A DNA stretch of 64,000 bases from contig RCMX01000007.1 in NCBI GenBank assembly GCA_004348925.1, positions 144,126 through 208,125 on the forward strand. Direction: 5' to 3'. A program made the translations under genes and the position numbers. The notes beneath the pieces were generated by a model. That model was not told where the DNA came from. It ran no database searches and was given only the letters and a program-made list of their open reading frames with translations. Below, piece after piece: positions 1-59,770 of the stretch (its first letter is position 1; each line of letters begins with the position of its first letter). The DNA is from Actinomycetota bacterium (GTDB lineage Bacteria > Actinomycetota > Coriobacteriia > Anaerosomatales > Anaerosomataceae).

Positions 1-53
1 GCGGTAAGCGAAGCGATGGCGGGGCCTCCGGAGGAATCCGGGGCCCCGCTGGT
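1..53 (+). repeat. Hairpin repeat copy A (tail of M6-peptidase 3' repeat)
   Basis: The window opens inside a repeated GC hairpin. These 53 bases match 1960-2013 with one G missing, and the core matches 4266-4306. The stem arms are a GC-rich 7-8 bp inverted repeat around a TCCGGAGGAATCCG-type loop. At the other two copies the hairpin directly follows the stop of a peptidase gene fragment. It is probably the original transcription terminator of an M6-peptidase gene lying just upstream of this window (inference). Confidence 0.75.
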
Positions 54-87
54 TTGCGCCGTGAGACGTCTCTCGTACGGGAAAAGC

Positions 88-1164
88 CTAGCCCGCCCAA
101 TCCAGATGAACCTTGAGGTCGTTCATCTGGTTGTGAGGCACGACACCGTCCTTCTGCAGCCTGCCAACCACGATGCCGGGTGCCACGCCGAGCGACGCCG
201 CGAGAGCGGTCACCGTTGCCTTCGTGGGCCGCCCGCTCGTCCGGAAGTTGGCGTACGCGTCGGGTGGAATGAGCGTATCCGCCGCGAATGTGTCCGCACG
301 TTCCTCTGACGCGGGGTCCCGATCGAGGTCGCATGGTGTCGCCTGGCGTCGGTCGTCGAGCAGCAGATGGCCTACCTCATGGAAGAAGCTGAACCAAATC
401 TGGTCGTCGGTCTTGTACCGCAGACCGAGCACCACAACGGCCCTGCTGCGCGATACCCACCAGCTGGCAGCGTGACAGCGGGTCTTGGGTAGGTCTCGAA
501 TGAACACAACGGCGACACCGGCGGTCGCGCAACGCTCGCGCAGAAGCGACTGCCACGTACCCACTGGCTCTCTGCTGGCCGAGCGGAGATCGGCGACCAC
601 GCGTCGGAAGGCTGCTTCGCTGTATGGCTCGGTCTGCACGCGCTCGGCGGCGATCTCGCCTGCCCGCAGCCATGCGGTGATGGCTGGCGTGCTCGCGCTG
701 TACGCTGTGCTCATGCGCGCGGCCAGGCGCCGCGGTGCGCTCCAGTACTGCGTGTATGCGTCCACCGACGACACGCCGAAGAATCCAAGCAGATCGCCAG
801 GCCCAGCTTCACGTGCGATCCAGCCGTTCGCGGCCATCTCCTTGCGCGGGAACGATCCAGCCCACTCCGTCTGCGCCCCAAGTTCCAGTGACTGCGCCCT
901 TCTGGCGAGTGCGTCGCGATACTGAGATTCCGCACCGTTCCAGAAGGAGGATGGCACGCCGAGTACGCGCTCAAGCTCGATGGCCGTTTCGTGTGTGAGC
1001 GATGCCTTTCCGTTGATGAGTTGGCTCACAAACTTCTCGCTCTTGTCGAGCCGGGCGGCGAAGTCTGCTTGTGTAATGCTGCGCTCATCCAGGATTTCGC
1101 GGATGGTGTCACCCGGCGCTACCGGAGTATCCAGTTCCGGGATGTATCTGATGTCAGCTGCCAT
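88..1164 (-). CDS. higA: HigA-like antitoxin: XRE HTH fused to ImmA/IrrE (M78) metallopeptidase domain
   Basis: This 358-residue protein has an N-terminal XRE/HigA helix-turn-helix (about residues 17-75, with ITQADFAARL and KFVSQLINGKASL) and a C-terminal ImmA/IrrE-type domain with the zinc motif HEVGH near residue 260. Long HigA proteins with this fusion are known as antitoxins and autorepressors. It overlaps the upstream higB by 11 bases, the toxin-first order typical of higBA. It probably neutralises HigB and binds the paired palindromes before higB. A stand-alone regulator-protease role cannot be excluded, but the higB partner makes a TA pair likely. Confidence 0.85.
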   Translation of the reverse strand: MAADIRYIPELDTPVAPGDTIREILDERSITQADFAARLDKSEKFVSQLINGKASLTHETAIELERVLGVPSSFWNGAESQYRDALARRAQSLELGAQTEWAGSFPRKEMAANGWIAREAGPGDLLGFFGVSSVDAYTQYWSAPRRLAARMSTAYSASTPAITAWLRAGEIAAERVQTEPYSEAAFRRVVADLRSASREPVGTWQSLLRERCATAGVAVVFIRDLPKTRCHAASWWVSRSRAVVVLGLRYKTDDQIWFSFFHEVGHLLLDDRRQATPCDLDRDPASEERADTFAADTLIPPDAYANFRTSGRPTKATVTALAASLGVAPGIVVGRLQKDGVVPHNQMNDLKVHLDWAG

Positions 1165-1492
1165 GGTAGTCCGTCACCTCCAGAATCCGCACCGCCGTGA
1201 CCATCGCCCAATCGAGTCCGCCGTCTGGCTTGGCTGGTGGGGGATCGTGTGCGGGTTCAAACACGAGTCTCAGCCCCTTGGTCACATCCACCGCCAGTTG
1301 CCCGACGCGGTCGCCCTTCAGCTCATGGCAGTGGCCGGGGAGGGTCCGCATCGTTTCAAGATCTGCCGCTGCGCTTAGCTGCTGCAGACGTAAGGCCAGT
1401 GCCCGTGCGGCGTCCGGACCGAATGCGCGGACTCGCGCCTTCTCTGTTCCACAGGCGCCGCCGAGCTTCTTGGTTGCGAAGTAGACCTCCAC
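1154..1492 (-). CDS. higB: HigB-like RelE-superfamily toxin
   Basis: This 112-residue protein matches HigB-type killer proteins: an ELKGDRVGQLAVDV segment, then LRLVFEP, and a C-terminal VRILEVTDYH typical of HigB/RelE ribosome-dependent mRNA interferases. It is the first gene of a two-gene operon and overlaps higA. Its start lies about 20 bases downstream of two perfect palindromes, which fits autoregulation. The exact catalytic residues were not aligned. Confidence 0.82.
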   Translation of the reverse strand: MEVYFATKKLGGACGTEKARVRAFGPDAARALALRLQQLSAAADLETMRTLPGHCHELKGDRVGQLAVDVTKGLRLVFEPAHDPPPAKPDGGLDWAMVTAVRILEVTDYHGS

Positions 1493-1512
1493 ACGAGCCT
1501 CGTGTCATGAGT

Positions 1513-1557
1513 ATTTACCGTAGGGGTAATGCTACACCGATTTACCGATAAGGTAAA
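1513..1557. promoter_or_regulatory. Twin palindromic operator of higBA
   Basis: Two inverted repeats of the form TTACC-N5-GGTAA occur at 1515-1529 and 1541-1557; the second extends to TTTACC-GATAA-GGTAAA. Their centres are 27 bp apart, and they sit immediately upstream of higB. The pattern fits cooperative binding by the HigA HTH (inference). Confidence 0.75.
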
Positions 1558-1691
1558 GTAACGACCCGAGGCCGAGTATGCGGCAGCGGTCTGACATGAA
1601 CCAAGGGACAGAGCAGAACGGCGAAGCAGACACCCGGCATGCGCTCGACTCTCCCGGGAGGCGAGCCGGGAGGGGGGTGCATGGACCGCCG

Positions 1692-1949
1692 AGGCCGATA
1701 ACAACGCGAGCGTGCACCCCGGGCACGGATGCGCTGCCGCTCCACTACAACGGCAAGCTCTACCCGATCCCGAGCCTCTCGGCGGTGTCGGTCTTCGACA
1801 GCATGCTGTCGTACTACGACGCAAAGAACCCGACCGGCAGCGTGAAGACGCCGGTGACCGGCGCGAAGATCGAAGTGCTGGGGACGGGGACGGCGAGTGA
1901 CGGGGGAGTGTACATGGGCGTGCGGGTGATGGCGCCAAGCCTCGAGTAG
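1692..1949 (+). pseudogene. M6-type peptidase C-terminal fragment, copy B
   Basis: This is a remnant of the 3' end of an immune-inhibitor-A-like (M6) peptidase gene. From 1728 to the TAG at 1947-1949 it is about 97% identical to 4016-4243 by eye. An internal stretch of roughly 110 bp present in copy C (after the shared GTGCACCCCGGG) is deleted here. The reading frame is intact at the end (…GVRVMAPSLE then stop), unlike copy C. There is no catalytic domain and no plausible start, so it should not encode a working enzyme. It lies between the higBA operator and hairpin copy B. Confidence 0.8.
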
Positions 1950-1959
1950 CACGAGCGGG

Positions 1960-2013
1960 GCGGTAAGCGAAGCGATGGCGGGGCCTCCGGAGGAATCCGG
2001 GGGCCCCGCTGGT
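1960..2013 (+). repeat. Hairpin repeat copy B, terminator-like
   Basis: This nearly identical copy of bases 1-53 starts 11 bases after the stop of peptidase fragment B. Its stem arms GCGGGGCC (1978-1985) and GGCCCCGC (2002-2009) flank a loop rich in CCGG. No T-run follows. Together with fragment B it forms a direct repeat delimiting the nucleotidyltransferase cassette. Confidence 0.8.
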
Positions 2014-2021
2014 AGCACGCG

Positions 2022-3053
2022 CTAGCGTGGTTGAGCGAGCTGCGTCAGCAGGTGCGCGGTTGAGGTGACGATCTCCTCCGCGTGTCCAAGTACCGACTCT
2101 CCAGGGAACGCCTCTGGCTTGGGCAGCGGCAGCGCCAAGCCTTCGATCGGCAGCGCTGCGCGCAGCGTGGTGAGCGAGGAGCGGACGATCACGGATGCCT
2201 CGTACCGACTGTCCGCGGCGGCTGCCTCCGCGAGACTCCTCTGAATCGCGCCGAGTGCCGAGAACGCACGAGCCCAGTCTACATAGCGCGACGCCGAAGC
2301 AGGCTGCCAGCGCAGTGACTCGACCAGCCGATACTGGACGCTCTTGCCGTCCTCGAAGCGTTCGGCGAACCCGGCCACTGCGAGACCTGCAAGGTACTCC
2401 GACACCTGTCGCTGCGAGTAGTCAGTCCGAGTCGAAATGAGGCGTCCGTGCGCGTTGTCGTGCGTCCAGAGGTAGGCGAGAACCTCGGCCCTGACGCCGA
2501 TACCCACGAGTGCGCGGGCAGCGAGCCTAGCAAGGCAGGGACGCTCAAGGTGCGGCTTGTCTGACATCTGGCGCAGCCCAAGCGTCGGTCGCGTGAAGCC
2601 GTAAGACGCGAAGAAGGGATCGTGCTCACCGAACACGGGCAAGTCGTCGCCGCTTGCGCTCCAGAACAGGGATTGTGCCGAGTAGACCGCGCTTGACTCG
2701 CCAGCCTGCCACTCGTTCGAAAGGGGGGCCCACTTTGACCCGGTGCCGCGCTTGCGCATGAAATCGATGACGACGCGAGCGAGGCGCTGCTGGCCGGGCG
2801 CGCCGGTCCTCATAAGGCGTCGCAGTCGGGTGACGTCAAGAACGTCGCCGTTGAGAGCGAGCCAATCGAGGACCTCATCGAACAGCCGTGGGTCGAAGCG
2901 ACCCACGTCGAGAGTGGCCATGACGAGAGCCTCCGGGTCGATGATCGATGCGCCGCTACCACGCGTCCCAGACACTCCCAGGTCGGTCCATTGCGCCCAC
3001 AGGAGATCGAGCACGGACCTGCGCAGAGCGCTGCTAGTTGTCTCGAGTGACAT
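2022..3053 (-). CDS. Winged-helix partner protein of nucleotidyltransferase (putative TA component)
   Basis: I do not recognise a named family for this 343-residue protein. The central part (about residues 190-245, with YSQRQVSEYLAGLAVAGF and a following VQYRL strand) looks like an ArsR/MarR-style winged helix. Flanking regions are helical, with no membrane segment or enzyme motif. It overlaps the upstream nucleotidyltransferase gene by 20 bases, so the two are almost certainly co-transcribed. By analogy with AbiE/MNT systems it could be the antitoxin and repressor. The cassette is bounded on both sides by peptidase-end repeats, which suggests acquisition as a unit. Confidence 0.6.
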   Translation of the reverse strand: MSLETTSSALRRSVLDLLWAQWTDLGVSGTRGSGASIIDPEALVMATLDVGRFDPRLFDEVLDWLALNGDVLDVTRLRRLMRTGAPGQQRLARVVIDFMRKRGTGSKWAPLSNEWQAGESSAVYSAQSLFWSASGDDLPVFGEHDPFFASYGFTRPTLGLRQMSDKPHLERPCLARLAARALVGIGVRAEVLAYLWTHDNAHGRLISTRTDYSQRQVSEYLAGLAVAGFAERFEDGKSVQYRLVESLRWQPASASRYVDWARAFSALGAIQRSLAEAAAADSRYEASVIVRSSLTTLRAALPIEGLALPLPKPEAFPGESVLGHAEEIVTSTAHLLTQLAQPR

Positions 3054-3630
3054 ATGCCATCCCTAGATGCTCAAGCAGCTCGACGAGCTGCACCCGGAAA
3101 CCGTCGGAGTTGTCCTGCTCTTCAATCCACTTGAGCGCGAAGCGGACCTCATCAGCCGTGGGCTGAAGTGCCTCAAGATCCGTCAGATGCCGTCCCGAGA
3201 CGTCGGCCGCGGCATAGGTCTTGAAGCATATCTGGTCCAGGCGACCGGCGTAGTGCACGGTAAGCGCAGAACCGTAGCTGCGTGGCACGAGTCGGGTCGC
3301 GAAACCTTCAGGCAAGCCGTGATCGATGAGATCGGCCGGACCGGCGTTGATCCAACCTGGTTCGATCTGGAACTCGACAGCAACTGCAGCAGCGGCTTGA
3401 GCAAGAACCTGCGGGAGTGGCCGAGACTTTGATAGCGTCAGCGCCTGCGCTGACGTCTCCCCAACGGCAACGACGTCAACATCCTTCGTTGGGCGCGTGA
3501 TGAGACCGACGGCGTTAAGCGCGGCTCCACCGATAACGCATATCTCGATGTGTCCCGCGTTGCGCCGCCGGAGCTCGGCGTCAAGCGCGGTGAACAGTAT
3601 GTCCAGGTCTCTACCGGCTACAGTGATCAT
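3034..3630 (-). CDS. DUF6036/AbiEii-like nucleotidyltransferase (putative toxin)
   Basis: This protein of about 198 residues has the nucleotidyltransferase signature VIGGAALNAVGL, then TKDVDVV, corresponding to the GG and DxD metal-binding strands of minimal or AbiEii-like NTases. I prefer the ATG at 3630 because GGAG lies six bases ahead of it; an ATG at 3642 is also in frame. It is first in a two-gene operon with the winged-helix protein. Toxic NTases of this class modify tRNA in the characterised MenA/AbiEii systems; that role is inferred here, not seen. Confidence 0.68.
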   Translation of the reverse strand: MITVAGRDLDILFTALDAELRRRNAGHIEICVIGGAALNAVGLITRPTKDVDVVAVGETSAQALTLSKSRPLPQVLAQAAAAVAVEFQIEPGWINAGPADLIDHGLPEGFATRLVPRSYGSALTVHYAGRLDQICFKTYAAADVSGRHLTDLEALQPTADEVRFALKWIEEQDNSDGFRVQLVELLEHLGMAYVTRDN

Positions 3631-3656
3631 GCAGAACTCCATACGATAACGTGTAT

Positions 3657-3687
3657 GTAGTCAGTATGACTACACTAGAGTAGTTGT
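3657..3687. promoter_or_regulatory. Palindromic operator upstream of NTase cassette
   Basis: A perfect inverted repeat GTAGTC-AGTAT-GACTAC (3657-3673) is followed by an imperfect second half-site pair (GACTAC…GTAGTTGTC). The array lies about 30-60 bases before the NTase start and probably overlaps the promoter, consistent with autorepression by the winged-helix partner. Confidence 0.6.
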
Positions 3688-3800
3688 CAATGGGAGCGCT
3701 GCTCTGACTAGCGGAGCAGGCATCTCCCGGGCGACGAGCTAGTCTATCGTGCTGGTGGCGTGGCGTGGCTGGTGAGGTGAGGGAGACCCCTCCCCGGGGC

Positions 3801-4243
3801 AAGAACGCGATGCCGAACTGGGCCGAGCGCTTCCCGTATCAGGACGGCCTGCTCGTGTGGTACTGCGACACCTCGCAGGCCGACAACAACGCGAGCGTGC
3901 ACCCCGGGAGCGGCTTTGCGTTGCCGGTGGACGCGCACCCCAAGGCGCTTACGCGCAACGGGAAGAACCTGTGGCGCAACCGGATTCAGACGTACGACTC
4001 GACCTTCGGGCTTCAGGCGACCGATGCGCTGCCGCTCCACTACAACGGCAAGCTCTATCCGATCCCAAGCCTGTCGGCGGTGTCGGTCTTCGACAGCATG
4101 CTGTCGTACTACGACGCAAAGAACCCGACCGGCAGCGTGATAACGCCGGTGACCGGCGCGAAGATCGAAGTGCTGGGGACGGGGACGGCGAGTGACGGGG
4201 CGTGTACATGGGCGTGCGGGTGATGGCGCCAAGCCTCGAGTAG
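3801..4243 (+). pseudogene. M6-type peptidase C-terminal fragment, copy C
   Basis: This fragment encodes the last 140 or so residues of an immune-inhibitor-A-like M6 peptidase, including FPYQDGLLVWY, DTSQADNN and the VHPGSGF…LPVDAHP motif of that family's C-terminal region. Relative to copy B, one base is missing near 4198-4201, so the frame shifts and stops at 4223 rather than at the original TAG (4241-4243). It has no catalytic zinc motif. It is longer but more mutated than copy B, and so may be the older displaced gene end. Confidence 0.8.
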
Positions 4244-4265
4244 CGAGTATCGAGCGGCTAGGGAT

Positions 4266-4306
4266 GTGATGGCGGGGCCTCCGGAGGAATTCGGGGGCCC
4301 CGCTTG
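4266..4306 (+). repeat. Hairpin repeat copy C
   Basis: This is a third copy of the GC hairpin, with stem arms GCGGGGCC (4272-4279) and GGCCCCGC (4296-4303). The sequence between the peptidase stop and the hairpin differs from copies A and B, while the hairpin itself is conserved. It marks the left border of the NERD-HNH-DUF3883 operon. Confidence 0.75.
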
Positions 4307-4368
4307 GGTGTGGGTGCCAGATACTGGATTGCGCTACACTCTCCAGGGGCGTTCAGTGAGGGGGCGGT

Positions 4369-5382
4369 GTGGCGCGGATCATTGGGACTCCAGGAGAGAG
4401 TGCGGGCGTGCGTGGCGCGCTCTTCGTGATCGTGCCAATCTCCCTGACCATCCTCCTTGTCTTCTTGCCAGCGCTGTATGCATTGTCGATCGCCGCCCGA
4501 CGACAGGGTCTTGTTGGTCTTGCAATCACCGGGGTGGTTGTAGTTGTCGTATGGGGCTTCAACCGGAAGACCTTCGCGGAGCTCTGGGAGGGTGTGCGTG
4601 AGGGTCGCAACTTCCTGAAGGGTGCTCAGGGCGAAATCCTAGTCCACCAGGCACTTCGAGAGCTTTCCGAGGAGTACATCGTCTTCCACGACTTCCACCC
4701 GGTCGACGCCTCCGGCAAGCCAGCGCGGTGGAATGTCGACCACATCGTCATCGGACCGACGGGTATCTTCGTGCTCGACGCGAAGTACTACAGTAAGCCG
4801 CGCGTGTTCGCAGCCGAGAAGAACTCATTCAATCGGAAGAACGTGGCGCAGGTTCAGCGCAATGCGATGGAGCTCAAAGAGCGTTTAGTGAAGTGGTCTG
4901 GCGGCGAACTTACGAAGCTGTTCGTGGTGCCGGTGGTCGTCTATGCGCAGCCGGATGCCAGTCTGGAGAAGCTGAACGAGGGTGCGGTGCGAACGATTCC
5001 CCTCAGGCTGCTCCCGAAGGAAATCACATCACATACGGAGGGAGAGATCGACCGCGAGCGCGCGGGTCGTGTGGCGCGAGTGCTCTATTCGCAAATCGGT
5101 CGAGACCTGCAGTACGCGTTCAAGACGGAGTTCGACGCGTACGGGGAGCTCTCGCGGGCTGCTCGGTATGCGGCCAGGGATGCGAGACTGGTGGCGCAGG
5201 CGGCAGTGACGGCCGAGCAGGCAGTGACCGTGGTCGAAGAGCCACCAACGTCGTGCCCGAGGTGTGGCGGCGCGCTTGTGCGCAGGACCGCGCGGTTCGG
5301 CGAGCGGGCCGGGAAGCCGTTCTTGGGTTGCGAGAACTACAGCAAGACGGGGTGCCGGTTCGGGTGGAACCTGGAGGAGTAG
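4369..5382 (+). CDS. Membrane-anchored NERD nuclease-domain protein with topoisomerase-type zinc finger
   Basis: This 337-residue protein has two N-terminal hydrophobic helices (about residues 15-65), then a NERD (nuclease-related) domain at about 85-210 with WNVDHIVIGPTGIFVLDAK, the usual D…E/DxK core strand. It ends in a topoisomerase C4 zinc finger (CPRCGG…C…C, about 293-330). The start is GTG, preceded by GAGGGGG. It is first of three same-strand genes with gaps of 3 and 10 bases. NERD proteins occur in DNA processing and defence islands. A membrane-tethered DNA-sensing or cleaving role is inference. Confidence 0.8.
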   Translation: MARIIGTPGESAGVRGALFVIVPISLTILLVFLPALYALSIAARRQGLVGLAITGVVVVVVWGFNRKTFAELWEGVREGRNFLKGAQGEILVHQALRELSEEYIVFHDFHPVDASGKPARWNVDHIVIGPTGIFVLDAKYYSKPRVFAAEKNSFNRKNVAQVQRNAMELKERLVKWSGGELTKLFVVPVVVYAQPDASLEKLNEGAVRTIPLRLLPKEITSHTEGEIDRERAGRVARVLYSQIGRDLQYAFKTEFDAYGELSRAARYAARDARLVAQAAVTAEQAVTVVEEPPTSCPRCGGALVRRTARFGERAGKPFLGCENYSKTGCRFGWNLEE

Positions 5383-5385
5383 CCC

Positions 5386-6321
5386 ATGCGCGGGTTCATC
5401 GGCAATACCGATTATGACTGGTACCGGTTCCTGGCTTCACAGCCGAGCATCGATGAGGTTGACTTCTGGCAACCGTCGGCCAACTCGCACTTCCGTGCGC
5501 TCAAGCCTGGTGAGCCGTTCTTCTTCCGTCTCAAGGCGCCACACAATGCAATTGCGGGCTTTGGGTACTTCGCAAGTTTCAGCGTGCTGCCATCTTGGCT
5601 CGCGTGGGAGAGCTTCGGCGTCAAGAACGGCGCTCGTGACTTCGAGGAGATGCGGGCACGCATCGAGAAGTACCGCCGACGGAATGGCGCACCGGTCGCC
5701 GAGCGCCCGGGCGATTACCAAATCGGCTGCATCATGGTGGCGAGTCCAGTGTTCTTCCCTGAAGAGATGTGGGTGCGTGAGCCGCAGGGGTGGCAACCCA
5801 ACATCGTGCGCGGCCGCGGTCAGGATGTCACCACCGGTGAGGGTCTGCGTATCTTCACCGAGTGTCTCGATCGCGCGCAGTATCTTGGTGCTTCGCTGAT
5901 TGGCGCGGAGGATCGAGCTCAACGCTACGGAGGGCCGGTGTTCGTGGCACCACGGCTCGGGCAAGGCATCTTCCGCGTGTCGGTGCTCGACGCGTACGAG
6001 CGAGCGTGCGCAGTCACGGGTGAGCACTCGCTGCCGGTGCTTGAGGCGGCGCACATCATGCCGTATGCGTCCGGTGGCATGCACGAGGTCACCAATGGGC
6101 TGCTGCTCAGGAGTGACATTCACCGTCTGTTCGACCTGGGCTACGTGACGGTCACCCCCGAGTACAGCTTCCAGATCTCCGATGCCCTTGCAGAGGACTT
6201 CCACAACGGCAAGACATACTACGCCGAACGAGGGAAGCAGCTGCTTCTGCCAAAGGCAGAGGCGATGCGGCCGAGTCGAGAACTGCTAGCGTGGCACGGG
6301 GAAAGCGTGTGGAGAGGATGA
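5386..6321 (+). CDS. HNH endonuclease with N-terminal PUA/EVE-like domain
   Basis: This 311-residue protein has a C-terminal HNH_2-type nuclease at about 205-275: CAVTGEH, LEAAHIMPYASGG, then TNGLLLRSDIHRLFD, giving the His-Asn-His triad. The N-terminal 130 residues (HFRALKPGEPFFFRLK, IAGFGYF, F…SWLAWESFG) resemble PUA/EVE/ASCH-like modified-base readers placed before nucleases in modification-dependent restriction enzymes. It starts three bases after the NERD gene, so they are co-transcribed. Recognition of modified phage DNA is an inference from this architecture. Confidence 0.82.
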   Translation: MRGFIGNTDYDWYRFLASQPSIDEVDFWQPSANSHFRALKPGEPFFFRLKAPHNAIAGFGYFASFSVLPSWLAWESFGVKNGARDFEEMRARIEKYRRRNGAPVAERPGDYQIGCIMVASPVFFPEEMWVREPQGWQPNIVRGRGQDVTTGEGLRIFTECLDRAQYLGASLIGAEDRAQRYGGPVFVAPRLGQGIFRVSVLDAYERACAVTGEHSLPVLEAAHIMPYASGGMHEVTNGLLLRSDIHRLFDLGYVTVTPEYSFQISDALAEDFHNGKTYYAERGKQLLLPKAEAMRPSRELLAWHGESVWRG

Positions 6322-6331
6322 GTGAGTCCTG

Positions 6332-7180
6332 ATGCGGAGAGACTGGTCACAGACTGAGGTTGATGCGGTGGTCCAAGACTACTTCGCGATGCTGGACAAG
6401 CAGCTTAGGGGACTACCGTACGTCAAAGCGGAGCATCGACACGCGCTGATGAGCATGGTTGACGGACGAACCGAGAAGTCGATCGAGCGCAAGCACTCAA
6501 ACATCAGTGCTGTCCTAGTCGAGCTTGGCTATCCGTATCTCTCTGGCTACAAGCCGCTTCACAACTACCAAAGGATGCTTGTGGACGTAGTTGCCGCGAG
6601 ACTGTCAGACGATGCGGTCCTTGAGCAGTCGGTTGTGCATTCTGCGGATGCGCCGGCTGCTGTCCCCTCAGTGGAGGACTTGGTCTCGCGGCTCGTTGAC
6701 GCCCCGGCGCCATTCGTAGCTGCTGCTCCAGCTGTGCGGGAGGCCGCTGCACAGTGGAGAGTCAGACGGGGAGTAGACTACCTTCAACGTGAGGCAAGGA
6801 ATGCATCGCTGGGTCTCGCCGGCGAGCAGTTTGTCGTCAACTTTGAGAAGGCTCGACTGTTGGTGGCAGGCGCAGACCGCCTGGTCGACAAGGTGGAGCA
6901 CGTTGCCGCGACGCAGGGTGATGGGCTTGGCTATGACGTGCGTTCATACACTGTTGAGGGCGCGGATCTTCTGATTGAGGTAAAGACAACGGGTTACGGG
7001 ATGCTTACGCCGTTCTTCGTTTCCGTCAATGAGCTGAACGTCTCTCGCGCACGATTCACTGACTATGCGCTCTACCGACTGTTTGACTTCAGGAGTAATC
7101 CGCGACTCTTCGCAATCCGTGGGGCGATTGATGCGACCTGCTCACTTGAGCCCTCCCAATACGTCGCAAGAGTGGGCTGA
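6332..7180 (+). CDS. DUF3883 (NO VEIN C-terminal-like) protein, probable PD-(D/E)xK fold
   Basis: The C-terminal half of this 282-residue protein is a DUF3883 domain: LGLAGEQFVV, then GLGYDVRSY, LLIEVKTT and a final FFVSVNEL region. The spaced D…ExK pattern (YDV, IEVK) is that of restriction-like nucleases. The N-terminal 130 residues are helical and not recognised. It is the third gene of the NERD-HNH operon, ten bases after the HNH stop. DUF3883 recurs in defence islands, often next to helicases or nucleases, so it is probably an effector or DNA-recognition subunit of the same system. Confidence 0.75.
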   Translation: MRRDWSQTEVDAVVQDYFAMLDKQLRGLPYVKAEHRHALMSMVDGRTEKSIERKHSNISAVLVELGYPYLSGYKPLHNYQRMLVDVVAARLSDDAVLEQSVVHSADAPAAVPSVEDLVSRLVDAPAPFVAAAPAVREAAAQWRVRRGVDYLQREARNASLGLAGEQFVVNFEKARLLVAGADRLVDKVEHVAATQGDGLGYDVRSYTVEGADLLIEVKTTGYGMLTPFFVSVNELNVSRARFTDYALYRLFDFRSNPRLFAIRGAIDATCSLEPSQYVARVG

Positions 7181-7208
7181 CGCCCACTAAACCGGAGCAG
7201 TGATGGAC

Positions 7209-7556
7209 TCACAGCTCCGTGTACTTCCTTCTGCTGCCCTTCGCCTTCTCCGCGGGGTACTTCGCATCGTTCGCTGCGAGCTTTCTCTCGATAGCCGCTA
7301 TCGGATCGATTCCTGTGTCGTGCGCCAGCAGCAGCGTGTAAATCAGCACGTCGGCGATCTCCTCCTCGATCTCGCCGCGCCGTTTCTCCACGTCTTCAGC
7401 GATTGTCTCGTCGCTGCTCCACTGGAAGCACTCCAGTAGCTCGGCGGCCTCGATACTGATGCTCGCAGCTAGGTTCCTCGGCGAATGGAATTGCTTCCAG
7501 TCGCGCTCATCTCGGAATGCGACAATCTGGCGGGTAAGCTCTCCCAGCGTGTCCAT
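7209..7556 (-). CDS. MazG-like nucleotide pyrophosphohydrolase
   Basis: This 115-residue single-domain MazG/RS21-C6-type protein shows the helical metal-binding motif EAAELLE…W followed by EEIADVLIY, the ExxE…ExxD pattern of dNTP pyrophosphohydrolases. It is co-transcribed with, and translationally coupled to, the DUF2075 gene: the stop TGA and this ATG share one base. MazG next to DUF2075 proteins recurs in mobile and defence loci. It may deplete or clean nucleotides during phage attack, which is inference. Confidence 0.82.
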   Translation of the reverse strand: MDTLGELTRQIVAFRDERDWKQFHSPRNLAASISIEAAELLECFQWSSDETIAEDVEKRRGEIEEEIADVLIYTLLLAHDTGIDPIAAIERKLAANDAKYPAEKAKGSRRKYTEL

Positions 7557-9487
7557 CAGCTCTCCAGGGTGTGTTCGGCGGCGACGGGGATAGCGGCCGC
7601 TGCTGGCGTGTAGTGCGCTTGTGGGACCTGGCTTCGCAGGAACTCGGCGAGTGAAGAATCCGTGCAGAACACGTAGCAGCCCTTCATCCCGCGGGTCATG
7701 AGTACACGGTAGGTGTTGCGGATGACTTCGTCCGCGATACGAGCGGCTCGCTCTGGGTCTTCCTTGGCCATCTTCTTGATGCCCTTGAGCGAGGCGTCGC
7801 TTTGGGCGCGACCGGTGTAGTCAGTGATGATCTTTGCGTCCTCGACACGCATGTCGTCGCCGACAATCACGCCCACATAGTCGAACTCAAGGCCCTGGCA
7901 CGTGTGGATACACCCGACCTGCTCGACGGACCCCTCATCGATGGCCCAGGTGTCTGAACTCTTGAGATTCCACGACCGACTGTAGTCGTGGGCGGGGAGA
8001 TTGACTTCTCGGTGGCTGGGATTGCTCTGGCCGCTCGTCGGCCATTCCCAACAGTACCCGGCGACCACGCGTGCCTTGTTCGTTTCGACGTTCTTCTCGG
8101 CAATGGCCGCGTGCATCTCGTTGGGGTCGTCAAACACACGGAAGTCGTAGTCCAGCGCAGCGATGTCTTCCTCGGCAGCGCGAATGCCAAGCACGTCATC
8201 GAGCCAGGCGAGGTACCCGTCGGAGCCGTTGCAGCGGAACTGCGAGAAGAGCTCGGCTTCGTGTATCTGTGCACCCGCGGCCAGGGCGTGGGTCTTGATA
8301 TCGGAGACGGTGCCGATGTCTTTGATTGTCACGCGCTGGCTCTCGTCTATGAAGAACACCGAGAACTGCGAAGCCGCGATGATCTCCTTGATCTGGTTCT
8401 CGCCCTCGTTGCCGTACATGCCGGACTTCTCGTTGAGCCGATGCGCCTCATCCACGATTACTGCATCGAGCGGCGCGCCGGTGTGCTCGTGGAACTTGCC
8501 GGGCCCCCGGAAGAGGGACTTGATGTACGCGGTCCGGTGTTTGCCTCGTAGGAGCTTGGAGTAGACGTTGCGGGGTGCGCTGTTCTTCGAGACGTACTGG
8601 CAGACCATCTCTTCGTTGGTCATGCGAACAAGGAGATTGATCGCAACTACCGACTTGCCAGTGCCCGGTCCGCCTCTGACGATGAGGACTTGTTTGGTTC
8701 CTGTGCGGCGTGCCTCCCTGGCGAGATGCGCGGCCTGTTCAAAGACGACCTTCTGATCGTCGATCATGATGAACTCGTCGTTGCCATGAAGCATGCTGGC
8801 CAGCGCGTCCTGTAGCGACTTCGACGGACGCAGCTTGCCAGACTCGATGCTGTAGAGCACCTGGCCGTCGTCCGAGTGTGTGATGTGGCGACAGATGAAG
8901 TCGCGCAGCTTCAGCGCGTCGCCGCTGCAGAACACCGGTGCCTGCTCGAGGTATTCGAGGTATGCGGGGTCGAGAAGCGGGTCGTAGCCCTCGGAGACTT
9001 TGTAGTTGTGGAGGTAGGCGCAGGGCAAGAGCTCGATCTGTGCGTCTCGGACCGCCTCGTTGTAGTTCTCAATCATGTGCGAGTACGACCACGCCTGGTA
9101 GGAGGGATGCGAGACCTCTCGGTGCGCGCCGCCCACGAACGTGCGGACTATGCCGTCCTTGGTGGGAATCGCCTCAAGTGCCTGCCACTGTTTGAGCTCG
9201 ATGATTACCGCGGAGTCGTGGTCGCCGTCACGTCTGCCCGTGAGCAGGAAGTCGATGCGGCTTGCGGTATACGGCACCCCGAACTCGATTGCCACGCCGC
9301 AGCCGCCGGGGATCGCGTCGCTGTTGAGTACCTTGTACATGTACTCCATGGAGTTCTTCCAGGAGTTCACTTCGCGCGGGTTGGCGCGATGCAGTTTGCG
9401 CTCGAACGCGGTTGTGATGTGATCGGCAATGACGTCATGATCAACGTCGTCCATGAACTCGGCCTTAGTAGCCTGGTAGACCAGCAT
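7556..9487 (-). CDS. DUF2075 (COG3410) P-loop NTPase/helicase with N-terminal nuclease-like domain
   Basis: Read from the ATG at 9487 (GGAG upstream; the product begins MLVYQATKAEF as family members do), this is about 643 residues. The N-terminal 250 residues carry a restriction-like strand (IDFLLTGRR, then AVIIELKQW). The C-terminal part is a superfamily-1-like ATPase with Walker A GGPGTGKS, Walker B VDEAHRL, FIDESQRV and late helicase motifs ending in VLMTRGMKGCYVF. It is coupled to the MazG gene downstream. DUF2075 proteins are common in defence islands, but the function of this one is unproven. Confidence 0.82.
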   Translation of the reverse strand: MLVYQATKAEFMDDVDHDVIADHITTAFERKLHRANPREVNSWKNSMEYMYKVLNSDAIPGGCGVAIEFGVPYTASRIDFLLTGRRDGDHDSAVIIELKQWQALEAIPTKDGIVRTFVGGAHREVSHPSYQAWSYSHMIENYNEAVRDAQIELLPCAYLHNYKVSEGYDPLLDPAYLEYLEQAPVFCSGDALKLRDFICRHITHSDDGQVLYSIESGKLRPSKSLQDALASMLHGNDEFIMIDDQKVVFEQAAHLAREARRTGTKQVLIVRGGPGTGKSVVAINLLVRMTNEEMVCQYVSKNSAPRNVYSKLLRGKHRTAYIKSLFRGPGKFHEHTGAPLDAVIVDEAHRLNEKSGMYGNEGENQIKEIIAASQFSVFFIDESQRVTIKDIGTVSDIKTHALAAGAQIHEAELFSQFRCNGSDGYLAWLDDVLGIRAAEEDIAALDYDFRVFDDPNEMHAAIAEKNVETNKARVVAGYCWEWPTSGQSNPSHREVNLPAHDYSRSWNLKSSDTWAIDEGSVEQVGCIHTCQGLEFDYVGVIVGDDMRVEDAKIITDYTGRAQSDASLKGIKKMAKEDPERAARIADEVIRNTYRVLMTRGMKGCYVFCTDSSLAEFLRSQVPQAHYTPAAAAIPVAAEHTLES

Positions 9488-9566
9488 CGGCAGCTCCGGG
9501 AGAGGGACGAGGGTGTCACAGGTCGAGTGTATCATCGGGTGACGACATCAATTCAAGGAGTCCGGC

Positions 9567-10082
9567 ATGACCCCACCCCTCATCCCCACATCCTGGTTCG
9601 TTCGCCTCGACGGTATCGAGCACTCGGGCGGCATTCACGGGCGCGGGCACACCCTGCGCGTGTGGGCGCACGCGACCGAGCTCGCGCGTGAGCTCGAGCT
9701 GCCGCAGTGGCAGCTCGAGGCGATCCACCACGCGGCGCTCTGGCACGACATCGGCCGCATCGACGACGGCGCCGACTACTACCACGGTGCGCGGAGCGGT
9801 GGTCGCGTTCTCGGCCTGGGGCTGCACGAGGGGCTCGACCCGGTCATCGCTGAGGCCGCCATCTTCGCGGTCACGCACCACTGCGGTTCGGAGCAGCACG
9901 CGGAGCTCGCGTTGCCCTACCAGCTCGACCCGGAGGGCTTCGGCAACGTGTTCCGCGTGCTCAAAGATGCCGACGGGCTCGACCGGGTTCGCCTCGGCGA
10001 TCTGAAGGCGAGCTACCTCAGGTTCCCGCAGTCGCACGGACGCATCGAGCGCGCGTGGGAGCTGCTGGAGGAGATCCGGTAG
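9567..10082 (+). CDS. HD-domain phosphohydrolase
   Basis: This 171-residue protein carries HGRGHTLRVW, ALWHDIGR, THHC and KDADGLDRVRL, the ordered H…HD…H…D metal ligands of HD-superfamily phosphohydrolases. AAGGAG precedes the ATG. It is transcribed divergently from the DUF2075 gene across a gap of about 80 bases. The substrate is unknown; small HD proteins of this kind often hydrolyse nucleotides. Confidence 0.8.
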   Translation: MTPPLIPTSWFVRLDGIEHSGGIHGRGHTLRVWAHATELARELELPQWQLEAIHHAALWHDIGRIDDGADYYHGARSGGRVLGLGLHEGLDPVIAEAAIFAVTHHCGSEQHAELALPYQLDPEGFGNVFRVLKDADGLDRVRLGDLKASYLRFPQSHGRIERAWELLEEIR

Positions 10083-54519: not shown

Positions 54520-56571
54520 ATGAGGGAGCATCGATCGACTCGCTACCTGGTCGCGGCAGTTGTGGTCGCTTTGGTGACGTCGCTGCTGGGCGTTCCGACA
54601 GCGTTCGCAAAGTCGACCTTCGCCGGTGGACCGACCGACACTGTTCTGTACGTGCCGAACGACCACACGCCGATCGGATTCCGGTTCGAGGCCACGGCGG
54701 GGCTTGCGCCGAGCACGGACTACTACGCCAAAGTCAGGTTCACGGTTGGCACCTCGCCGGACCCCACTACGAACCGCGGCCTCACCTGGAACGGTGCCTC
54801 GGGAGCCTGGGTGCCCGACCTCGGCGGTGTCAACTGGACCGACTTCCCGGTCGTCACGAGCAACCCGGACGGCACCATCACCGAGCAGTGGATCTTCGCG
54901 AAGTTCGGCGATGAGCTCTCCTCGGGCACGTATCACGTGATGATCTCGCTCTTCAGCAACGGAACCACGTACAACTCATCGAACGTCCCGGCCGTCACCG
55001 TCATGGACATGGCCACCCAGGGCGGCTGGATCCACAACGGGAGCACGCTCGCGGCAGGATCGGCAGGCAGACGCGTCGAGTGCTCCTCGGTGGCCTCGAC
55101 TGCAACCGTCTATGCGCTCGCGAAGTCCGAGGCCGACCTGGTAGACAGCGACTCGGACGGCGTGGTCGACAACGAGGACTACGGACCGGCTGGTGTCTCG
55201 GCCGCCGATTTCCGGCTTGGCGTGCCGGTGAGCCTGCCGTTCAACACGTACATCAACCGGACGTCGCAGATCACGTCGTCCTTCACGCTGGCTGTGGCGG
55301 ACACCGACATAGCGCACAGCGGTACGGATCAGGTGGCACCGAGCGCCCCGGGCTCATTCGTCGTCGATCCGGGTGTGCTGGCGAACGAACTGTCCTGGAC
55401 GGCTGCCGGCGACGCTGGCGGATCCGGGCTCACGGGCTACCGCATCTTCCGCAGGGTGGCGTCCGGCCAGGAGAAGTTCTCGAATCCGTGGAGGCTTATC
55501 GCGCAGCCGGATTCGGGCGTGACGACGTACATCGACGAAGGGCTTGAAGCGGGTGTCGAGTACTTCTACCAGATCAGGGCGGTCGACGCCGCCACGAACG
55601 TCGGCCCTCGCGCAGAAGACAGCGGGACACCTCTGCAGTTCAAAGCGGAGTTGGTGCGCACCTTCGGCGCCGACCGGTACGGCACCGCTATCGCGATCTC
55701 GCAGAGCACGTTCCCGCCAGGCTCGACCTCTACGGCCATTCTCGCGACAGGCATGAACTTCCCGGATGCGCTCGCGGCATCCGGTCTCGCCGGTGCGGTA
55801 GGCTCGCCTGTGCTGCTCGTCGGCGCGTCGGTGACCGCTTCGCTTACCGCCGAACTCGATCGGCTCGGTGTGACCGATATCGTCATCGTCGGAGGTGAGA
55901 GTGCCGTTCCGGCAAGCGTGGCGACTGCACTCGCTGCGAACTACACCGTGGACCGGATCGCCGGCGCCGATAGGTATAGCACCGCGGCGCATGCTGCATC
56001 GCGCATCAAGGAACTGACGGGTGACGCCAGCTTCGCGTTCTTCGCACGCGGCGACAGCTTCGCTGACGCGCTTGCGGTTTCGCCGATCGCCTACAGTGGA
56101 GCGATTCCGGTGCTGCTCGTCCGGCCCAGCAGCGTGCCAACGATCACAAGTGGCGCCATCGGCGTCCTCGGCGTCACGGATGGCGTCGTCGTTGGCAGCG
56201 AGGCAGCCATCTCAAGTGGCGTGTATGCCACGCTCGATACAGTGCTGTCCGGCAGCATCCCGCGCATAGGCGGAACGAATCGCTACGAGACCGCGAAGCT
56301 GATCGCGGACTATGCGGTCGACGAGGGCTGGGCGACTTACAGCTACATCGGCCTTGCGACCGGTCTCAACTACCCCGACGCGCTCGGTGGCTCTGGCGCC
56401 ACCGCATGGAGTGGTGGCGTACTGCTGCTCACCGATCCCAAGACGCTTTCGGCACCGGTCGTCTCGGCGATCACCGACAACAAGGGCGAGATCGCGACCG
56501 TTGAGATCTTCGGGAGCTCCAATGCCGTCAGCAAGCGCGTCGGCGATGCTGTGGCGGCGCTCCTGGAGTAG
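54520..56571 (+). CDS. Secreted CWB2 surface protein, paralogue 1
   Basis: Start ATG 54520, 683 residues. A signal peptide (VVVALVTSLLGVPTAFA) leads to a 250-residue N-terminal domain with VPNDHTPIGFRFEA, YYAKVRFT, W-F-AKFGDE and a Ca-site-like DSDSDGVVDNEDYGP. An FN3-like domain follows (about 280-370), ending EYFYQIRAVDAATNVGPR. Three CWB2 repeats (about 378-683; DRYGTA, FPDALAA, NRYETA, YPDALGG) attach it to wall polymers. It has the same length and order as the 57719 gene, so this is a duplicated pair. The ligand of the N-terminal domain is unknown. Confidence 0.9.
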   Translation: MREHRSTRYLVAAVVVALVTSLLGVPTAFAKSTFAGGPTDTVLYVPNDHTPIGFRFEATAGLAPSTDYYAKVRFTVGTSPDPTTNRGLTWNGASGAWVPDLGGVNWTDFPVVTSNPDGTITEQWIFAKFGDELSSGTYHVMISLFSNGTTYNSSNVPAVTVMDMATQGGWIHNGSTLAAGSAGRRVECSSVASTATVYALAKSEADLVDSDSDGVVDNEDYGPAGVSAADFRLGVPVSLPFNTYINRTSQITSSFTLAVADTDIAHSGTDQVAPSAPGSFVVDPGVLANELSWTAAGDAGGSGLTGYRIFRRVASGQEKFSNPWRLIAQPDSGVTTYIDEGLEAGVEYFYQIRAVDAATNVGPRAEDSGTPLQFKAELVRTFGADRYGTAIAISQSTFPPGSTSTAILATGMNFPDALAASGLAGAVGSPVLLVGASVTASLTAELDRLGVTDIVIVGGESAVPASVATALAANYTVDRIAGADRYSTAAHAASRIKELTGDASFAFFARGDSFADALAVSPIAYSGAIPVLLVRPSSVPTITSGAIGVLGVTDGVVVGSEAAISSGVYATLDTVLSGSIPRIGGTNRYETAKLIADYAVDEGWATYSYIGLATGLNYPDALGGSGATAWSGGVLLLTDPKTLSAPVVSAITDNKGEIATVEIFGSSNAVSKRVGDAVAALLE

Positions 56572-57718: not shown

Positions 57719-59770
57719 ATGAAGAAGGGGCATTTGAGACAGCGGGTCGCCGTACTGGTGGTGCTCGCGATGGTGGCATCGATGGGGTGGACGATCCCGT
57801 CGGCGTCCGGAGCCGCAGCCACGTTCACAGGCGGTGCGTATGACATGCCGCTCTATGTGGCCAACGACCACACGCCTGTCGCGTTGCGCTTCAACGTCAC
57901 AGGCGGGCTCGAAGCGAACACGCAGTACTACGCGAAGATCCGATTCACCGCTGACGTGACGCCGAACTCGACCACCAACCGTGGCTGGACGTACAACGCG
58001 GCCACGAACACCTGGATTCAGGAGCGTGAGGATTGGACGCTCTTCCCGGTAGTCACGACTGACGCGAGCGGGTTGCTGGACACCTGGATCTACGCGAAGT
58101 TCGGTGACGAAGATCAGTCGGGTAGCTATTACGCCATGGTCTCGCTCTCCAAGACAGGCGCGGCGTCAACGTACAACGCGTCCGTGCTACCGCTCGTGAC
58201 CGTCATGGACACGAAGACCGCAGGCGCATGGATTCACAACGGCACGGCCACGGGCGCCGCTACCGCCAAGCGGGCCGAGGTCACGTCGGTCGCGTCCACC
58301 AGCACGGTGTACGCGCTCTCGAAGACCGAAGCCGACGCGGTCGACAGCGACTCGAACGGCGTCGTCGATGACGAGGACTACGGCCCTGTCGGCAAGAACG
58401 GCGACTACAGGTTCGCCGTCCCGACCGCCACGGCGTTCAGCGTATACCTCAACCGCAACTACTCGACCAGCACGATCCTGAACAAGACCGTGGCAACCGC
58501 CGACACCGATATCGCGCTCATGGCGGCCGACACGGAGGCGCCAAGCGCCCCCTCGAACGTCACGGCGACACCGGGCTCGGACAGCGTCACCGTTGACTGG
58601 GACGCTGCGACCGACCCCGATTCCGGCGTGGCCGGCTACAGAGTCTATCGCTGGCAGGCGTCCCCCTCGGCTTCGTATACGAATCCGAAGAGTCTCGTGG
58701 CGACTACCGCCGCCGGTGTGACCCAGTACCTCGATGAGGGGCTGGTAAAGGGCGAGGAGTACCGCTACGAGGTCCGTGCGGTCGACGTTGCCACGAACGT
58801 CGGTCCGCGTTCCGCCGAGGTCACGGCAGTGCCGCTCGGCCTCATGGACACCACGCGTACCTCCGGCGCCGACCGCTACGCGACGGCGATCGCGCTGTCG
58901 TCATCGGCGTTTGCCGACAGCACGGTCACGACAGCGGTCGTGGCAACCGGCCGGGATTTCCCGGACGCGCTCTCGGCGTCGAGCCTCGCCGGTGTGTACG
59001 GAAGCCCGATTCTGCTTGTCGGCTCGTCGGTGACCGCTTCGCTCACGGCCGAACTCGATCGTCTGGGTGCCCAGCATGTCGTTCTCATCGGCGGCACCAG
59101 TGCCGTTCCGACTACCGTTGAGCTAGCGCTCTCCGCGCACTACAACGTGTCGCGAATCCAGGGTTCTGACCGCTATGCTACGTCGGTCGCGGTCGCCAGG
59201 GAGGTCGCCAGCCTGACCGGTGGCGTCACCGAGGCGTTCTTCGCCCGCGGCGACGGATTCGCCGATGCACTGGCGGTATCGCCGTTTGCGTACGGCCAGG
59301 CTATGCCGGTCCTGCTGGTGCGTCCCACGAGCATACCGACCACGGTCAGCGCCGCCGTCGGCTCGCTCGGCTTGACCGACGGCATCATCGCCGGCGGAGA
59401 GCCCGCGGTATCCGCAACCGTCAAGACCGACCTGGACGGTCTGCTCTCGGGCACGGTCACGAGAGTCTGGGGCACTGATCGGTACCTGACCGCTCGTGCC
59501 GTCGCCGACTACGGCGTCGCGCAGGGCTGGGGCGACTACAGCTACGTCGGCATCGCGACGGGACTTACGTTCCCCGACGCCCTCGGCGGGGGACCTGTCG
59601 CCGCGCAGAATCATGGCGTGTTGTTGCTGACCAACCCGCAGTCGCTCTCCGCGCCGGTGTCCTCGGCCATCACGGCGAACAAGGGCACCATCGACCTCGT
59701 CGATATCTACGGCAGCGAAAAGGCCGTAACCGCGGGGGTCCGCACCGCTGTCGAAGCTCTGCTTCAGTAG
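57719..59770 (+). CDS. Secreted CWB2 surface protein, paralogue 2
   Basis: This 683-residue protein has the same length and plan as the 54520 gene: signal peptide (VAVLVVLAMVASMGWTIPSASG), an N-terminal domain with VANDHTPVALRFNV, YYAKIRFT, YAKFGDEDQSGSYY and DSDSNGVVDDEDYGP, FN3-like (about 275-370) and three CWB2 repeats (DRYATA, FPDAL, TDRYLTA). GGGAGG precedes the ATG. It is 39 bases after the regulator and 12 bases before the next gene, so probably heads a long operon. It likely captures a substrate at the wall for the membrane proteins downstream (inference). Confidence 0.9.
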   Translation: MKKGHLRQRVAVLVVLAMVASMGWTIPSASGAAATFTGGAYDMPLYVANDHTPVALRFNVTGGLEANTQYYAKIRFTADVTPNSTTNRGWTYNAATNTWIQEREDWTLFPVVTTDASGLLDTWIYAKFGDEDQSGSYYAMVSLSKTGAASTYNASVLPLVTVMDTKTAGAWIHNGTATGAATAKRAEVTSVASTSTVYALSKTEADAVDSDSNGVVDDEDYGPVGKNGDYRFAVPTATAFSVYLNRNYSTSTILNKTVATADTDIALMAADTEAPSAPSNVTATPGSDSVTVDWDAATDPDSGVAGYRVYRWQASPSASYTNPKSLVATTAAGVTQYLDEGLVKGEEYRYEVRAVDVATNVGPRSAEVTAVPLGLMDTTRTSGADRYATAIALSSSAFADSTVTTAVVATGRDFPDALSASSLAGVYGSPILLVGSSVTASLTAELDRLGAQHVVLIGGTSAVPTTVELALSAHYNVSRIQGSDRYATSVAVAREVASLTGGVTEAFFARGDGFADALAVSPFAYGQAMPVLLVRPTSIPTTVSAAVGSLGLTDGIIAGGEPAVSATVKTDLDGLLSGTVTRVWGTDRYLTARAVADYGVAQGWGDYSYVGIATGLTFPDALGGGPVAAQNHGVLLLTNPQSLSAPVSSAITANKGTIDLVDIYGSEKAVTAGVRTAVEALLQ

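Follow-up and report, generated by a model that had tools for sequence, protein, structure and literature searches.

Displaced ends of an M6 peptidase gene as probable scars of defence gene import in an Anaerosomataceae chromosome

In the 64,000-nucleotide stretch of an Anaerosomataceae bacterium (Actinomycetota; contig RCMX01000007.1) analysed here, hereafter the window, two candidate toxin–antitoxin modules are each followed by a displaced 3′ end of the gene for an M6 (InhA-like) secreted peptidase, the intact copy of which lies directly upstream. These displaced ends were probably left behind as scars when imported defence genes recombined into the peptidase end, rather than being the product of a new integrase. 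The explanation we favour, with a probability of about 0.58, is serial insertion with long target duplication via homologous recombination in the peptidase end. The site was compared among three genomes, namely the source genome and those of two congeners (G001 and G002).

The peptidase gene and its three 3′ ends

The intact peptidase gene (L005:13753-15935; G000:C6:141878-144060 in the source genome, where window base 1 is G000:C6:144126) is open in a single frame and encodes a catalytic Peptidase_M6 domain (Pfam, 2e-74) followed by InhA MAM and VEG domains. An intact gene at this place had been predicted from the window alone. Its reading frame enters a 65-N assembly gap that ends at window base 1. 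Because copy B, the first displaced end, holds exactly 65 bp at the equivalent place (1895-1959), the gap probably conceals just the final codons of the intact gene (copy A). The gene body thus lies outside the window, and its terminator hairpin occupies positions 1-50 on the forward strand.

Both displaced ends are in the same orientation. Repeat alignments placed copy B at 1692-1949 (forward strand), with an internal loss of approximately 110 bp, and hairpin analysis placed its terminator at 1974-2012 (forward). Copy C (3797-4243, forward; terminator hairpin at 4269-4305, forward) was 94% identical to the intact gene and frameshifted by a 1-base deletion near 4200. A self-comparison of 80 kb around the locus recovered these peptidase-end repeat pairs with E values from 4e-172 to 4e-8: a 47-nt unit at 1-47, 1960-2006 (98%) and 4254-4300 (85%), a 181-nt block shared by 1725-1905 and 4020-4200 (97%), and a 108-nt block shared by 1903-2010 and 4197-4304 (87%). 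The repeated hairpins, the peptidase fragments and both deletions described by the sequence-only reading were thus recovered. Its identity of about 97% also held for the longest block, although the extent that it gave, the last 220 bases, was too short; copy C starts at 3797, giving a repeat of approximately 510 bp. The displaced repeats are 170–510 bp long and start at different points of the gene, at codon ~597 in copy C and near codon 623 in copy B. Further close repeats were absent from the 80-kb self-comparison, which contained only two diverged ones, at 54.6–59.8 kb and 41.4–41.8 kb (65% and 76% identity, respectively). Neighbouring diverged paralogues with 65% DNA identity are located at 54646-56571 and 57851-59770.

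In principle, the repeated peptidase ends could have been misjoined or misordered during assembly, and the 65-N gap falls exactly within copy A. Nevertheless, copies B and C are free of gaps, many sites distinguish the copies, the gap is as long as the missing sequence, and independent similar scars were found in G001 and in G018, a genome of a sister genus (see below). An assembly artefact is therefore very improbable.

The hairpin recurs at 1, 1960 and 4266 because every displaced end brings its own terminator. In ten relatives examined, including island-free ones, a strong GC hairpin closely followed the stop codon of the peptidase gene, but the stem sequences differed. Because the relatives keep its position but not its sequence, the hairpin is the ordinary terminator of the peptidase gene rather than an attachment (att) site. 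Its candidacy as a recombination site was rejected on the same grounds, as the stem varies even where there is no island.

The sequence to the left of copy B is not peptidase sequence. These 55 bp (1640-1694, forward strand) match the start of the next gene after the G002 peptidase, from its promoter through the ribosome-binding site into the first codons, and are fused straight to fragment B (alignment score 55; maximum of 31 in 1000 shuffles). Furthermore, a promoter resembling that behind the G002 peptidase terminator (23/25 bases identical) lies at 4318-4348 on the forward strand, behind terminator C and upstream of a gene encoding a NERD-domain protein. Because next-gene sequence forms the left flank of B and the same promoter lies behind terminator C, the repeating unit comprises the peptidase end, the terminator, the module and the next promoter. 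A next-gene left edge is what would be predicted of a crossover adding a circular or one-sided donor segment in the peptidase end. Relative to the G002 site, insert 1 spans 60-1644, with a TGCGC motif marking each edge (55-59 and 1640-1644), and it is present as a single copy in the source genome.

The main copy and copy C differ at 24 of 393 sites, comparable to the 25 of 393 that separate G001 and G002 in the same region. All seven substitutions specific to copy C were synonymous (P ~9e-5 if unconstrained), and several of those specific to the main copy altered amino acids. Because all of the C-only changes were synonymous, copy C seems to have belonged to a working peptidase for most of its divergence. 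This constrained history fits the former gene end of either its own or a donor lineage, and a within-genome copy drifting as a pseudogene from the outset was ruled out by the same changes. A further candidate, copy B as a crossover mosaic of the main copy and C, was dropped since changes in the main copy alone explain most sites.

Cargo turnover at the site in relatives

Both borders of the region, the peptidase gene on the left and an HD-domain gene on the right (9567-10082, forward strand; locus comparison), were shared by G001 and G002. The restriction and defence cargo between them differed in each congener, in line with the accessory nature proposed for the cassettes. G002 carried GmrSD and DpnII-like genes, and G001 carried an MTES_1575 helicase-nuclease, a type III restriction-modification (R-M) system, GmrSD and HerA. 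The comparison of orthologous loci for empty and occupied sites, suggested by the sequence-only reading, also showed that the G002 peptidase, terminator and promoter follow one another without inserts 1 and 2. The interval from the peptidase to the HD-domain gene at 9567 is a chromosomal defence hotspot with the peptidase 3′ end as its left border.

G001 contains a decayed second peptidase end approximately 6 kb downstream of the first (L032 ~7264-7420). In this remnant, sequence from the MAM domain is joined to the last 50 bp of the gene at a GACGGCGGCGTG repeat; its start in the MAM region differs from those of copies B and C. In addition, the last 90 bp of the intact G001 gene differed from G002 by 24%, compared with 6% elsewhere (Fisher P 2e-7), which is suggestive of an exchanged gene end. 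The G001 and G002 contigs break alike, within a ~70-bp stretch at the zinc-binding motif of the peptidase (L031/L172 and L032/L173), which probably reflects the origin of both genomes from similar metagenome assemblies.

A comparable pattern was found in G018, where the island downstream of the peptidase (L033:10302-16350) contains two frameshifted HNH-gene fragments of 369 and 268 bp (~92% identity) in direct orientation, with a UvrD-like helicase gene between them and an intact HNH gene following. This is an independent second case of the scar pattern at a different target gene. Other direct duplications (≥ 100 bp, ≥ 85% identity) were found neither in the window nor in ~340 kb of other stretches, which overlap partly and form a small sample biased toward loci near these genes.

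The main rival to insertion is an old tandem duplication of the whole peptidase in one lineage, with both copies long functional and modules inserted later between them, deleting the 5′ parts of the downstream copies. Such a duplication could account for the direct orientation, the all-synonymous history of C, the next-gene sequence left of B and the MAM-region sequence in the G001 remnant. It would, however, require a separate insertion and truncation for each unit in two species, together with a parallel history of the HNH gene in G018. In addition, two full tandem peptidases were found in no genome of the order, and the other 11 peptidase-bearing genomes had one match each. We consider this scenario unlikely, though worth serious attention.

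Proposed route of insertion

If the units arrived by homologous recombination, the incoming DNA would have consisted of a peptidase 3′ end, its terminator, one defence module and the start of the next gene. Recombination within the shared peptidase sequence would have added such DNA on two or more occasions here and probably on one in G001. The incoming copy would complete the resident gene, and the new module would come to lie between that gene and the old resident end, displaced downstream. The likely route is a single homologous crossover with circularised donor DNA; alternatively, one side might have joined by homology and the other illegitimately. Every displaced end would then start at its own place, joined to whatever terminated the donor segment, and would decay afterwards, as could be the case for the 110-bp deletion in B and the frameshift in C. 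The order of events, the circular intermediate and transfer by transformation or transduction are what we infer from this arrangement.

The sequence-only reading had likewise proposed serial insertion that keeps the peptidase whole. This part is supported by the displaced ends, the second end in G001 and the constrained history of C, and the site-specific mechanism attached to it is not. Consistent with that reading, no integrase or recombinase was found among the island genes; the genome encodes five tyrosine recombinases, all on other contigs, and no serine recombinase or resolvase-family gene was found in it. There is no tRNA near the site, so a tRNA-type target was rejected, and no constant short core was found at the insert ends. 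A site-specific recombinase acting in trans, inserting cassettes at the peptidase 3′ end or hairpin, would explain why the gene end stays whole, why serial units share one orientation and why TGCGC flanks insert 1. Such an enzyme is nevertheless improbable: the hairpin is conserved in position alone, the fragments begin at differing gene positions, repeats of 170–510 bp far exceed att cores, and the module ends are not conserved between genomes, quite apart from the location of the tyrosine recombinases and the failure to find a serine recombinase. The suggestion of a new or trans-acting mechanism is accordingly disfavoured. A novel integrase is unlikely, and a new type is not needed because the pattern matches published insertion with long target duplication. 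A bolder reading, in which protein-gene ends in this bacterial family are reusable homologous landing pads, units of gene end, terminator, module and next promoter circulate between species, the stack records their order of arrival and a dedicated, unrecognised trans-acting factor helps, also seems improbable.

Several points weigh against homologous recombination in the peptidase end. The final 65 bp of the intact gene are unsequenced, so that the gene is linked to module 1 by scaffolding. To the left of C, the flank resembles next-gene sequence weakly (P 0.017–0.2), leaving the junction point to depend mainly on B. Few sites are available to polarise the main copy, B and C. In G001, substitution rates vary along the gene and another window is also high, so that the exchange of its end is suggestive at most. 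The 5-bp TGCGC at both edges of insert 1 would also be compatible with a more specific insertion. The genome encodes ComEC, which by itself is no proof of natural competence. Lastly, the sequence of events is reconstructed, as no strain with one unit alone and no donor allele was found.

Cargo and relation to known systems

Modules 1 and 2 are candidate toxin–antitoxin modules, predicted to be HigBA-like and of the nucleotidyltransferase/winged-helix type, respectively. In module 1 (reverse strand), a HigA-like antitoxin (88-1164) combines helix-turn-helix (HTH) and M78 (ImmA/IrrE-like) domains (Pfam HTH_3 and Peptidase_M78; PADLOC PD-Lambda-2_B, 6e-30), with an NCBIfam HigA match slightly under the cut-off. 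The neighbouring HigB-like toxin candidate (1154-1492, reverse) matched Pfam HigB-like_toxin below the cut-off (0.0056) and had weak HigB matches in PDB; its homologue in another genome, G026, scored 3e-5, also below the curated cut-off. This candidate pair is kept together in several genomes of the order. In module 2, a winged-helix-like partner (2022-3053, reverse), with weak HTH matches alone, adjoins a nucleotidyltransferase gene here and in several genomes. The nucleotidyltransferase (3034-3642, reverse) is a DUF6036/MenT/AbiEii-like toxin candidate on the basis of motif, fold and homologues. Its homologues exceed the Pfam DUF6036 cut-off, and its AlphaFold model was closest to MenT1, MenT3 and AbiEi (best Foldseek E 0.016); the catalytic motif and the predicted fold seem to agree. 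The HigA and winged-helix genes were distributed patchily, being found in 11 and 14, respectively, of 69 genomes of the order, in one copy each. All three peptidase-bracketed modules (window 88-1492 and 2022-3642, and L032:1750-7212) are transcribed toward the peptidase and meet its terminator tail to tail.

The rest of the hotspot (4369-9535) comprises NERD, HNH, NO VEIN-type (PDC-S36), MazG-like and Schlafen-type helicase genes, all absent from G001 and G002. Across the order, homology of the modules does not extend beyond the genes and promoters, and there are no common cassette ends; an integron or transposon cassette was rejected on this basis. A phage or plasmid origin was not indicated either, with no matches among 50,697 phages and 72,556 plasmids or in viral contigs. 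In G026 (L161:7011-10165), the HigBA and nucleotidyltransferase modules are adjacent and arranged differently, without a peptidase fragment. In G054 (L164:742-7656), HigBA, HNH and the MazG–Schlafen helicase pair are clustered, and these cargo genes appear to travel together. Because G054 holds these homologues and the peptidase was not found there, the cargo appears to move independently of the peptidase. Two more toxin–antitoxin pairs (PIN/MazE-type and PIN/ribbon-helix-helix) lie between the enolase and peptidase genes (L005:12038-13585), and the hotspot may extend on both sides of the peptidase.

For defence hotspots that lack integrases, the usual proposal is that they are assembled by homologous recombination in the flanking sequences, a process from which few scars are expected. 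At this locus scars do persist: single modules are bracketed by displaced flanking-gene ends, which are divergent enough to be compared and ordered. If the proposed explanation is true, scanning genomes for displaced gene ends beside defence genes would gauge the frequency and donors of such hotspot growth, and the G018 case, with another target gene, suggests that such a scan would find more.

Insertion with long target duplication was reportedly described by Nobusato et al. in 2000. As in that process, a self-contained addiction or defence block lies in the chromosome between long, variable direct target repeats with no transposase or integrase attached; the insert is present here and missing at the same G002 site, and the main/B and B/C repeats are at least 100 bp long and variable in length. 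In published cases, R-M genes were inserted with long, variable target duplications (PMC3874152, PMC1643837, PMC3031569). The cargo here consists instead of candidate toxin–antitoxin modules, although the link of the original cases to R-M systems is an association rather than a step of the mechanism; in G001 the bracketed cargo is a helicase that carries a restriction-type nuclease domain. A further difference is that the target is a protein-gene 3′ end that is kept whole, with two events stacked at one site.

Single crossovers of partly degraded or shortened circles produced gene-end duplications of 109–950 bp at lacZ during Escherichia coli conjugation (PMC3240628). The locus resembles these products in its partial gene-end duplication beside added DNA, although theirs is a bench result in E. 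coli and ours is read from natural sequence. For the core defence hotspots cDHS1/2 of Pseudomonas aeruginosa, transfer by homologous recombination in the flanking sequences, leaving no mobile-element scars, has been suggested (PMC10250203). They share with this locus conserved flanks and strain-specific defence cargo that is not obviously one mobile element, whereas here partial copies of the flanking gene survive as visible scars, in an unrelated bacterial family. Integrase-driven islands at the 3′ ends of tRNA or protein genes likewise restore the gene end and displace the old one, but here there is neither an integrase nor a fixed short core, and the repeats are much longer with varying starts. 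What this locus adds to the known pattern is serial stacking at one protein-gene end and candidate toxin–antitoxin cargo.

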